Source: a virus
DNA: 45,475 nucleotides
Reading direction: 5' to 3' (one strand)
Virus record (IMG/VR): IMGVR_UViG_3300027733_001739
Span: 1-45,475 of that record
Of this stretch, positions 7,315-11,786 are shown one piece after another (positions within the stretch are counted from its first letter, which is position 1; each line of letters begins with the position of its first letter). The notes beneath the pieces are model-generated. The model saw only the letters and a program-made list of their open reading frames with translations. It ran no database searches and was not told the DNA's origin. The position numbers and the translations under genes were made by a program.

Positions 7315-7343
7315 TTGACAATCATTAATAATAACTGTATAAT
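7315..7343 (+). promoter_or_regulatory. Consensus sigma70 promoter for the tRNA-like RNA
   Basis: TTGACA (7315-7320) and TATAAT (7338-7343) match the consensus at all twelve positions with a 17-bp spacer. The expected start point, 6-10 bases after the -10 box, falls at or next to the 5' end of the tRNA-like gene (7353). Confidence 0.9.
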
Positions 7344-7352
7344 TATTACACT

Positions 7353-7446
7353 GTAGACGTGAGCGGAACTGGTATACCTCCTCCCTTCGGGGAGGGACTG
7401 TTTTTATTAAAAACTTTTGGAGGTTCAAATCCTCCCGTCTATACCA
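7353..7446 (+). tRNA. Class-II tRNA-like RNA with an abnormal anticodon arm
   Basis: Acceptor strands GTAGACG (7353-7359) and CGTCTAT (7436-7442) pair over 7 bp, followed by an A discriminator and an encoded CCA. The T arm is canonical (GGAGG, loop TTCAAAT, CCTCC; 7419-7435). A variable arm GTTTTT-ATT-AAAAAC (7400-7414) and a GGAACTGGTATAC D loop resemble tRNA-Leu. The anticodon arm is odd: the best fold is CTCCC-TTCG-GGGAG (7381-7394), a UUCG tetraloop leaving no anticodon. A 7-base loop CTTCGGG (anticodon TCG, Arg) is possible only with a C-A mismatch in the stem. It may be a tRNA mimic rather than a decoding tRNA. Confidence 0.7.
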
Positions 7447-7474: not shown

Positions 7475-7801
7475 ATGAGATTAGTTTTAACTGCAGTTTT
7501 ATTAACCTGTTCTTTATCAGTAGTTGCAGATGAATCACCGTATGATAAATTTTCAGCTAAAAATAATTTCACTAATGGCACAAAAGTAACATGGATACAA
7601 GTTGATAATATTTTAAAATCTTGTAATGCAGAAAATGTAAGACGACGATTACCACAGTACAATGTACCAATTGACGGTTGTTCATTTTGGGACAAATCAT
7701 TGTTTGGCAACACCTGTGTAATTTTTACACCTAAGAATACTGATTACTGGACAATGGGACACGAACTTCGCCATTGCTTTCAAGGCCAATTTCATGAATA
7801 G
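7475..7801 (+). CDS. Small exported protein with an HExxH metal motif
   Basis: The 108-residue product starts with a typical signal peptide, MRLVLTAVLLTCSLSVVA, cut before DESPYDKF. Near the C-terminus is GHELRHCFQGQFHE, which contains HELRH, the HExxH signature of zinc metallopeptidases; a third ligand could be the His of QFHE, or the metal site may be incomplete. Four Cys in the mature part could form disulfides, in line with export. A mature chain of about 90 residues is very short for a peptidase. Possible roles are envelope remodelling during lysis or blocking other phages; neither is shown. It is the first coding gene after the tRNA-like RNA and overlaps the next gene by 8 bases. Confidence 0.7.
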   Translation: MRLVLTAVLLTCSLSVVADESPYDKFSAKNNFTNGTKVTWIQVDNILKSCNAENVRRRLPQYNVPIDGCSFWDKSLFGNTCVIFTPKNTDYWTMGHELRHCFQGQFHE

Positions 7802-8285
7802 CAGTATACTACCTTTAAGTACAAGTAACCAACGACGTATACCATTAGATGCTACTCATAGACAACAAGAAATATGGGAGCAACGAGATGCTTTTAAACT
7901 AGAAAGAGACAAGAGATTTAATGACCCTATGAATCAAAAAAACGATTTAGAATATGAACTGCGTACTACTAATTGGATTTTACAAAAAGTTCGAAACTCT
8001 GAAATCTACGCACAGAATTTATATGCAGCAATGTGTAATAATGAATTTGTAAGAATTGACGATGTATGGAACATCCTTAAAGAAGAATACTGGGGAGTAA
8101 GTTGGAGAACTGCAGGCGGAATAATTGCAGACATGCGAGAAGAAGGTGACTACATGGATTGGTATTGCTCGGGTATTAGCCAACCTATCACAGGTAATGT
8201 AAGCGAAAGTGTAGTAACACAAGAAATTAAAGACGACTTAAGACAACTAGGATGGACAGTGATATATGATAACGAAACATTATAA
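7794..8285 (+). CDS. Conserved phage protein of unknown function
   Basis: This 163-residue soluble protein has a charged N-terminal half (EIWEQRDAFKLERDKRFND), followed by YAQNLYAAMCNNEFV and WGVSWRTAGGIIADMREEGDYMDWYCSG. I associate the second half with hypothetical proteins of large marine T4-like phages, but know no function. That part could be a winged-helix-like segment (DVWNILKEEYWGVSWRTAGG). It overlaps the exported HExxH protein gene by 8 bases and the small AbrB-like gene by 20, so it belongs to one coupled early unit that runs from 7475 to 8650. Confidence 0.72.
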   Translation: MNSSILPLSTSNQRRIPLDATHRQQEIWEQRDAFKLERDKRFNDPMNQKNDLEYELRTTNWILQKVRNSEIYAQNLYAAMCNNEFVRIDDVWNILKEEYWGVSWRTAGGIIADMREEGDYMDWYCSGISQPITGNVSESVVTQEIKDDLRQLGWTVIYDNETL

Positions 8286-8439
8286 ATACGAAGAACTATT
8301 TTTTGAAAACCTCGATGATCCTAGCACTGTGTTATTTCAAATACCTCAAGACATGCTTGATAAATATGGGTGGGTACCAGGGGATGAAGTAACCGTAACA
8401 ACAACAGATGAGAGATTAATAATTAAAAAGCATGAGTAA
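8266..8439 (+). CDS. Small AbrB/MazE-like DNA-binding protein
   Basis: A 57-residue frame opens with ATG at 8266 and overlaps both neighbours (20 bases upstream, 8 downstream). After an N-terminal KYEELFFENLDD segment it has IPQDMLDKYGWVPGDEVTV, then a final strand DERLIIKK. This order (proline-led strand, short helix, GW-x-x-GD turn, two strands) is the swapped-hairpin pattern of AbrB and MazE antitoxin DNA-binding domains. It could bind phage or host promoters as a dimer. No toxin gene is next to it, so an antitoxin role is not supported. Function is inferred from pattern only. Confidence 0.6.
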   Translation: MITKHYKYEELFFENLDDPSTVLFQIPQDMLDKYGWVPGDEVTVTTTDERLIIKKHE

Positions 8440-8650
8440 AGAAGATGTGATCGAAATGACAGGTAAAGTCATTGATGTTTTACCGGGAAATATGTTTAAA
8501 ATCGTAGTCGATGATACTGCACACACTTTAATTTGTTACTTAGGTGGAAAACTTAAACAACACAAAATACGAGTCATTACAGGCGACCATGTCAAATTAG
8601 AAGTTAGTCCTTACGATCTTAACAAAGGTAGAGTTACTTACCGTCTTTAA
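8432..8650 (+). CDS. infA: Translation initiation factor IF-1
   Basis: At 72 residues it has the length of E. coli IF-1 and matches it along the whole chain: [20 protein letters not shown] against [40 protein letters not shown] against [20 protein letters not shown]. IF-1 is a single S1/OB-fold domain that sits in the A site of the 30S subunit during initiation. A phage copy could favour phage mRNAs or replace host factor lost after infection. It overlaps the AbrB-like gene by 8 bases and lies in the unit that begins with the tRNA-like RNA, which would group translation functions. A cold-shock or S1-type RNA-binding role is less likely, given the full-length match. Confidence 0.95.
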   Translation: [72 protein letters not shown]

Positions 8651-10412: not shown

Positions 10413-10830
10413 ATTGACAAATTTAATACCATTGCGCAACGACCTAATGGTGCAACAACAGATTAAAAATTCCTGGGAGCATATGGTAGGTGTTATTATG
10501 CTCAATCAAACTGGACGGAAACCAGTAAAGTTTATTCTACCTAAGTTTCTTTATTGGTTTCCAACACCACAGGATCTTATAAATGCAGAAGAAGTATTTG
10601 TTAAAGTAATCATTGCACCGTTAGGTATGTCAAATGTACGATATAAAAGACTCGTAAAAATGAGTCAAGACTATTTGACATGGGACGGCAATGATGCTAC
10701 AATGCTTTATGGAATTGGAAAATATGGTAGCGATAGTTACGAAATATTTTTTAAACATAATTTTACTGTTACTCCAACTGACAAAGAATTGAAACGATAT
10801 CTACAAGAGGAAATTGAATGCCAAATTTAG
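10384..10830 (+). CDS. MBD4-like HhH DNA glycosylase
   Basis: This 148-residue protein fits the catalytic domain of the mammalian and plant mismatch glycosylase MBD4. Matching blocks are [18 protein letters not shown] (39-56), an [21 protein letters not shown] segment (72-92), the helix-hairpin-helix [15 protein letters not shown] (108-122; MBD4 has LHGIGKYGNDSYRIF) and [12 protein letters not shown] (129-140). Asp133 lines up with the catalytic Asp of MBD4. MBD4 removes T or U opposite G. Here it may repair deaminated bases or act on modified phage or host DNA. There is no methyl-binding domain and no iron-sulfur cluster Cys set. The start is uncertain: 10384 overlaps the previous gene, and ATGs at 10399 and 10447 are possible. 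Confidence 0.8.
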
Positions 10831-11405
10831 TACCAATGGTTGTTGAATCAGAAGCAAAAGGTGAGCGTAGTTATGATATTTACAGTCGACTGCTTAAAGA
10901 CCGAATTGTAATGTTAGATACCGATGTTAACGAGCATTCTGCTAGTTTAATTGTTGCACAGTTGTTATTTTTAGAAAGTCAAGGTAATGAAGATATTAAC
11001 TTTTTTATTAATAGCCCAGGTGGGGTAGTTACTGCAGGGCTTGCAATATACGATACAATGCAATTTATCAAACCTGATATTGTTACAATTGTCATGGGTC
11101 AAGCATGCAGCATGGGCTCATTGTTAGCAACTGCAGGTGCACTAGGTAAGCGTAAGATGTTACCAAATGCACGACACATGTGTCACCAGCCCAGCGGAGG
11201 CGCACGTGGTCAAGCCACTGACATGTTAATTCAAGTTGAAGAAATCTTAAAGATGAAAAAATCTCTAACACAGATTTACGTTGATCATAATAGTAAAGGC
11301 AAAACGTTTGACGAATTTTCAACTATGATGGAACGTGACACATTTATGTCCGCTACAGAGGCTTTAGAATATGGACTTATTGATGAAATTATTACTCGTC
11401 GCTAG
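10818..11405 (+). CDS. clpP: ClpP-type serine protease
   Basis: The 195-residue product is a full ClpP subunit. The catalytic triad is Ser98 (GQACSMGS), His123 (MCHQPSGG) and Asp174 (MERDTFMSA), in the same order and nearly the same positions as in E. coli ClpP (Ser97, His122, Asp171). The start of helix [21 protein letters not shown], is standard. ClpP forms a 14-mer that degrades proteins fed by a Clp ATPase; none lies in this window, so it probably works with host ClpX or ClpA, or as a phage-only ring. Possible roles are turnover of host proteins or processing of virion proteins. It overlaps the glycosylase gene by 13 bases and the lipoprotein gene by 35. Confidence 0.95.
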
Positions 11406-11757: not shown

Positions 11758-11786
11758 TTGACATCTTGTATTAACTAATGTATAAT
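11758..11786 (+). promoter_or_regulatory. Consensus sigma70 promoter for DNA ligase
   Basis: TTGACA (11758-11763), 17 bp, TATAAT (11781-11786): perfect match. It precedes the ligase start codon by 29 bases, with AGGAG at 11805-11809 as the Shine-Dalgarno. Confidence 0.9.

Follow-up and report, generated by a model that had tools for sequence, protein, structure and literature searches.

The locus described here raises the question of what use a phage could make of an RNA that has the body of a transfer RNA and lacks an anticodon with which to decode. The analysed record is an IMG/VR contig of 45,475 bases, the whole of which we refer to as the window, and the RNA lies on its + strand. A first-pass annotation had placed a class-II tRNA body without a usable anticodon at 7353–7446, under a promoter of its own; its coordinates, strand and anatomy agree with ours, and the elements are as follows.

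7315–7343, + strand: sigma-70 promoter, TTGACA-N17-TATAAT, 12 of 12 positions matched, 17 nt spacer
7353–7446, + strand: anticodon-less leucine-type tRNA mimic, 94 nt, 89 bits with covariance model R1
7353–7359, + strand: 5' strand of the acceptor stem, GUAGACG, partner 7436–7442; both-side changes in five of seven pairs
7362–7379, + strand: D arm, with A10-U25, G11-C24, one bulged pyrimidine and G12-C23; A14, A15, G18, G19 and A20a in the loop
7380–7395, + strand: hairpin replacing the anticodon arm, CCUCCC-UUCG-GGGAGG; stem co-varies, 7 nt loop in 0/98 sequences
7396–7418, + strand: variable arm, helix GUUUUU/AAAAAC in the window, co-varying among relatives; last base U48 (98/98)
7419–7435, + strand: T arm, GGAGG-UUCAAAU-CCUCC; U54, U55, C56 and A58 invariant
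7436–7446, + strand: 3' strand of the acceptor stem (CGUCUAU), A73 (98/98) and CCA (encoded in 95/98)

Whether such an RNA might decode after all depends on the arm in the anticodon position. In the window RNA the UUCG hairpin is predicted at −12.0 kcal/mol, against +0.8 kcal/mol for the register with a 7 nt anticodon loop, and the register that would expose UCG requires one U.G pair and one C.A mismatch. ARAGORN nevertheless calls the RNA tRNA-Arg(TCG), and in one relative (L039) the sequence CUUAGGG at the same place is called Leu(tag), both of which would suit an ordinary tRNA, either tRNA-Arg(UCG) or tRNA-Leu(UAG) in decay. We regard an ordinary tRNA as extremely unlikely: the hairpin is favoured over the anticodon register by 13 kcal/mol, the hairpins of the relatives hold no anticodon, and decay is excluded by the strong conservation across relatives. 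With the Rfam tRNA model the window RNA scores 25.4 bits, below the 29-bit cut-off. Its single-sequence minimum free energy is only mildly unusual (z −1.8), and it is the comparison of 98 distinct relatives, not that value, which places the RNA beyond chance.

The relatives were first collected with a pattern made up of the D arm and CUUCGGG; later patterns dropped the hairpin, and were then anchored only on the promoter and the acceptor, bringing in many more. The size of the family is a lower bound, and IMG/VR contigs are mostly fragments. Model R1, built from 23 sequences, gives a single match per source, at 56.7 to 117 bits, in at least 151 IMG/VR sources including the window (at least 150 other contigs), compared with 47 bits or less for ordinary phage tRNAs on the searched contigs and loci; as far as they can be identified, the best matches other than mimics are tRNA-Leu. 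Contigs of 191, 259 and 400 kb each carry the mimic once, and its carriers make up a large uncultivated group of phages, many of them of very large size. One pattern found no bacterial or archaeal copy in 84,980 species genomes, the five matches of a looser pattern not being mimic RNA. Among cultured phages, four family members gave no full-length blastn match, and R1 reached at best 46 bits, the level of ordinary tRNA-Leu, on eight cultured-phage records picked through other shared genes.

Across the 98 distinct sequences, 97.4% of stem cells are paired and 20 of 29 pairs have changed on both sides, with a covariation score of 0.406; shuffling gave 0.143 (0/500), and slid controls did not exceed 0.071. 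The RNAs are 94–117 nt long with a helical D arm (the third D-stem pair is unbulged, a C-G variant, in L149 and L169), and with acceptor, D and T arms, G18G19, the UUCRA loop and a CCA end they have the make-up of tRNAs; three of the 98 end in CCG, and L250 and L262 have no encoded CCA. The stem of the replacing hairpin co-varies as well, one pair occurring as UA, CG, GU, AU and GC, and its apical loop has 3–6 or 8–10 nt and never 7. The claim that no usable anticodon is present was thereby borne out: none of the 98 distinct relatives has an intact 7 nt loop, and compensation of the C-A mismatch fails as an alternative, since the 6 bp UUCG-type hairpin is either kept or exchanged for unrelated hairpins of varied length (for example CCUCC-UAGUAGCUUCGGCGAAC-GGAGG, CCCCUGUGGUGUAACGAACGGCCACAGGGG and CCGGCAUGCCGG). 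With no anticodon, the RNA as folded here can read no codon, nor can it be cut in the anticodon.

Other functions for the hairpin were considered and rejected. Mimicry of the anti-Shine–Dalgarno or Shine–Dalgarno sequence (ACCUCCU and GGAGG strands) is at odds with the joint change of both strands in L024, L052, L100 and L103. The window hairpin is followed by CTGTTTTT, as in an intrinsic terminator, but relatives have no T run there. An intron in the anticodon arm would leave nothing to splice to in L043, whose arm is only CCGG-CAUG-CCGG. As a separate observation, AGUA ... GAA recurs in internal loops of these hairpins (L042, L030, L143, L155 and others) and resembles the bulged-G (loop E) motif, and the loop GUAACRAAC recurs in the anticodon-arm hairpins of another clade; the hairpins may have been taken from elsewhere as structured modules.

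What remains constant in the body points to leucine. U8, A14, A15, G18, G19, A20a, A21, U48, U54, U55, C56, A58 and A73 are invariant in 98 of 98 sequences, and positions 16, 17, 20 and 20b of the D loop vary freely. Some determinant positions had been fixed in the early search patterns, and the count was redone on sequences from scans that did not fix them, among which the positions read by leucyl-tRNA synthetase (LeuRS) are again invariant (69/69). Among the tRNAs of these phages the leucine-type pattern is present in 14 of 14 tRNA-Leu and in 12 of 120 others, and the D arm of the mimic is nearest to that of tRNA-Leu. The U2-A71 pair of the mimic differs from the C2-G71 pair that is usual in tRNA-Leu. 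In Escherichia coli, leucylation depends on A73, A15-U48, G18G19, A20a and contacts between the D and T loops; neither anticodon nor long arm serves as a LeuRS determinant, variants without the anticodon arm stay active, and the arm matters for LeuRS editing (PMC9976931). By these rules, which are those of E. coli and may not be those of the host, all 98 sequences would be LeuRS substrates, having A73, A14, A15-U48, G18G19, A20a and the D/T contacts. Since every known E. coli LeuRS determinant is kept, we infer that the host LeuRS probably charges the mimic with leucine, and the earlier suggestion that such an RNA could in principle be processed and aminoacylated gains support from these predictions. 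Judged by comparative sequence analysis, then, the window RNA is one of a family of structured RNAs, conserved and present as single copies, that have a tRNA-Leu body and a promoter of their own but no anticodon.

The perfect promoter of the mimic is accompanied in the window by three others of the sigma-70 type, at 11758, 13931 and 27566. All 42 distinct loci have a promoter in the same place upstream of the mimic, matching at 10–12 of 12 positions, and the −10 box precedes the first acceptor base by exactly 6 nt in 40 of them. The gap in the window is 9 nt, compared with the usual 6, and the start point there may therefore lie about 3 nt upstream of G1; the promoter proposed in the first-pass annotation stands, with its 12/12 match, and only the exact placing of the start may need this small shift. 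A consensus sigma-70 promoter makes it probable that the RNA is abundant and early. In the first sets of loci, a co-oriented ORF begins 16–63 nt after the CCA (42/42 distinct loci), and with a promoter upstream and an ORF close downstream an operon transcript would normally begin with the mimic. The genes that follow it in the window are these.

7475–7801, + strand: first ORF, 108 aa, ATG 28 nt after the CCA; cluster c1, present in 33 loci; probably co-transcribed with the mimic
7794–8285, + strand: second ORF, 163 aa; cluster c0, present in 35 loci
8432–8650, + strand: translation initiation factor IF-1 (Pfam PF01176, 1.9e-19)

Such an arrangement could mean that the RNA acts in cis, as the leader of an operon mRNA that shields its 5' end, sets its maturation through cleavage by tRNA enzymes or lets LeuRS binding control the downstream genes. 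The close co-oriented ORF, the lack of an obvious terminator between it and the mimic, and a transcription start at the first base of the RNA are all in keeping with a leader, yet we consider this role unlikely. In L248 and L260 the promoter and RNA lie inside a tRNA array, and the next gene, after a few bases, is not an ORF but tRNA-Ser. The genes that follow also vary by lineage: in that of the window they encode a small secreted-type protein, a protein of no assigned function (c0) and IF-1, in another an MSTTVEQ protein and a protein reading as ThyX, and in L035 a kinase resembling polynucleotide kinase (PNK). A single copy per genome is ill-suited to a general leader, and A15-U48, A20a and A73 are not required for stability alone. 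IF-1 itself is encoded in 19 of 24 mimic contigs searched (18 of 23 besides the window).

Some neighbouring genes deserve mention in their own right. The 7475–7801 protein, the first after the mimic in one lineage, has an N-terminal signal-like stretch and, with its cluster, a conserved C-terminal GHE.(R/M)HC..G..H motif (GHE.RHC in the window); it is metalloprotease-like by eye and belongs to no Pfam family. Between 23237 and 33101 the window encodes a UDP-glucose dehydrogenase, a QueD-like protein and a UvsE-type UV endonuclease, that is, host-takeover and repair genes. In L052 (399,796 bases), genes reading as hydroxymethylbilane synthase and uroporphyrinogen decarboxylase lie directly upstream of the mimic, which is unusual for a phage record.

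The single copy, the tRNA-Ser that follows the mimic in L248 and L260 and the kept charging determinants make a role in trans likelier than a leader role, and we consider action in trans probable. It is further supported by the differing downstream genes of the lineages and by the one strong match per source, which holds for the 259- and 400-kb contigs as well; counting against it is the ORF close downstream in all 42 distinct loci from the first sets, which also fits a role in cis. Our current working hypothesis, to which we give a little less than an even chance as a whole, is that the RNA is a non-decoding tRNA-Leu mimic serving in trans as a decoy for host proteins. RNA polymerase would start at, or within a few nucleotides of, the first acceptor base, directed by the consensus sigma-70 promoter. 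Host tRNA enzymes would trim the 3' end and add CCA where it is not encoded, and the body folds as a class-II tRNA with the elbow between D and T loops intact, as the covariation and the invariant bases show. Once charged with leucine by the host LeuRS, the mimic would form a stable decoy occupying host proteins that seize tRNAs by the acceptor, the elbow or the aminoacyl end. The likeliest targets would be defence or stress effectors that attack tRNAs, and the real tRNA pool would thereby be spared.

The kept LeuRS determinants and the intact elbow would equally be expected of a competitor, which would tie up LeuRS or EF-Tu, lower host translation or stress signalling and favour the phage tRNAs. 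The strong promoter, and the tRNA sets and IF-1 that these phages carry, are consistent with competition, but phage translation would be slowed too and phage tRNA-Leu need the same LeuRS, so that we think it improbable. Retention of all LeuRS determinants together with loss of the anticodon might alternatively indicate a leucine donor, the charged mimic feeding a non-ribosomal reaction, such as the transfer of leucine to protein N termini by Aat, free of ribosomal competition. The window has a ClpP gene 3.4 kb downstream (ORF 10818–11405, assigned by eye), with homologues in several loci; no Aat gene was found in 16 mimic contigs, though the host Aat could serve, and real Leu-tRNA would do equally well. 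We judge a donor role to be improbable as well.

Returning to the decoy, an RNA directed against tRNA-attacking host proteins is a possibility to which we would give rather less than an even chance, and the genes near the mimic in several loci (L007, L024, L035 and others), for PNK-like kinase, phosphoesterase, RNA-ligase-like and Ro60-like proteins, are consistent with a setting of conflict. The L007 genes run Ro60-like, phosphatase, phosphoesterase, RNA-ligase-like (phrog_562, 4e-52), polynucleotide-kinase-related kinase, mimic; L035 has the RNA flanked by the Ro60-like and PNK-like genes; and about 250 nt separate the end of the ligase-like gene of L024 from the mimic downstream of it, with an HD-type hydrolase nearby. 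In the window, Ro60-like, kinase and phosphoesterase genes lie 4–6.6 kb upstream, and no ligase-like gene was seen. A gene setting of this RNA-repair type has been described for jumbo phages (PMC7824862). An RNA-ligase-like gene was present in only five of 27 mimic contigs searched, many of them fragments, and we therefore take the setting as context and not as proof. The L024 hydrolase, seen in passing, is an HD_4 protein (−2029 to −1516 from the mimic, Pfam 1.2e-13) of a kind related to alarmone hydrolases, and could be relevant to toxins that modify the CCA end of tRNAs.

The phage tRNAs published as defeating such defences do so by replacing host tRNAs, a task for which the anticodon is needed (PMC11555353; PMC10264068); indeed, a phage tRNA-Tyr with a changed anticodon no longer gave rescue from retron-Eco7 (PMC11555353). 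A decoy without an anticodon therefore has no direct precedent among them and, if real, would work in a different way. More broadly, and tentatively, we propose that these RNAs may represent a widespread and hitherto undescribed class of phage RNA, a leucylated, anticodon-less and thus uncuttable decoy for immune proteins that seize or modify tRNAs at the elbow, acceptor or aminoacyl end.

In the window a Ro60-like gene lies 5 kb upstream of the mimic, and this, together with the tRNA mimicry, had suggested a Y RNA of the YrlA kind that might pair up with the Ro60-like protein. We consider this very unlikely. The mimic does not have the YrlA order of arms, the window contains no Rfam YrlA match even at an E value of 1, and a separate YrlA-like RNA stands beside the Ro60-like gene of G010, nearly the same phage. 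There, immediately 5' of that gene, lies a weak YrlA match, 34.4 bits against a cut-off of 69, with a T arm and then a D arm within AGGAUAC/GUAUCCU; it maps a few dozen bases beyond the left edge of the window. Linkage to a Ro60-like gene is also not general: of the 24 mimic contigs searched, 14 showed no such gene, the 400-kb one among them, though most of these contigs are fragments; it occurs in the other 10, often fragments too, and adjoins the mimic only in L035. The first-pass annotation is thus supported as to the tRNA mimic, its missing anticodon and its own promoter, and not as to the YrlA/Ro60 link; its idea of a primer finds neither support nor objection here, its idea of a decoy is the function that we prefer, and it had missed the leucine identity and the family.

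The Ro60-like gene itself (753–2153 in the window) has a probable Y RNA cluster 5' of it, seen in window positions 1–750 and in L124 (G010:31000–36000). The YrlA-like RNA lies at about −144 to −33 relative to the window, and further elements, near 376–466, 476–641 and 692–741, share AGG..ACAGCAA or similar sequences and closing helices; the Rfam match covers the first element only, and the window is not enriched in ACAGCAA by itself. In Cronobacter phage S13 (L136, 3396–3638), a tRNA-Ser of 121 nt and a tRNA-OTHER of 113 nt are annotated just after the Ro60-like gene, and these two long 'tRNAs' may be misannotated Y RNAs.

Other imitators of tRNA have been described, namely tmRNA, Y RNAs, a few pseudo-tRNAs of bacteria and the RNAs of certain plant viruses, and it is interesting to set the present family beside them. 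The literature covered, from which subscription journals were largely absent, did not yield any account of RNAs from DNA phages that form a family with full aminoacylation identity and no anticodon arm. The family bears on the old question of what purpose, besides supplying codons, tRNA-type genes serve in phages. Its 98 natural variants, a single tRNA body with interchangeable anticodon arms, offer a clean test set, and the decoy reading, if true, would point to host defences that recognize tRNAs outside the anticodon.

With canonical class-II tRNA-Leu the mimic shares A73, A14, A15-U48, G18G19, A20a, U54-A58, the elbow and a long variable arm; it differs in the unrelated hairpins in place of the anticodon arm, a bulged D-stem base, a variable arm of up to about 30 nt and the inability to read codons. 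The tRNA-like domain of tmRNA is likewise a chargeable tRNA body without an anticodon, but tmRNA has no D-arm helix, is charged with alanine and includes an mRNA-like part; ARAGORN finds no tmRNA in the window. The tRNA-like ends of plant virus RNAs are also viral mimics of a chargeable tRNA, and differ in being the 3' ends of genomic RNAs, whereas the mimic is a stand-alone or 5'-located RNA of DNA phages. YrlA is another small non-coding RNA that imitates tRNA, and the same phages carry a Ro60-like gene; it has a T arm followed by a D arm within a separate closing helix, in contrast to the normal tRNA order, acceptor stem and CCA of the mimic. The tRNA-Other of Bacillus cereus resembles the mimic as a tRNA-like RNA with a role outside translation, but it is bacterial, still has a Trp anticodon, accepts lysine only poorly and resides within a larger RNA (PMC3399842). 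Phage tRNAs that escape anticodon nucleases are similar in being phage RNAs with a strong promoter and a plausible counter-defence role; unlike the mimic, which without an anticodon can replace none, they stand in for cut host tRNAs (PMC10264068; PMC11555353). The mimic would be a natural RNA in which charging is separated from decoding.
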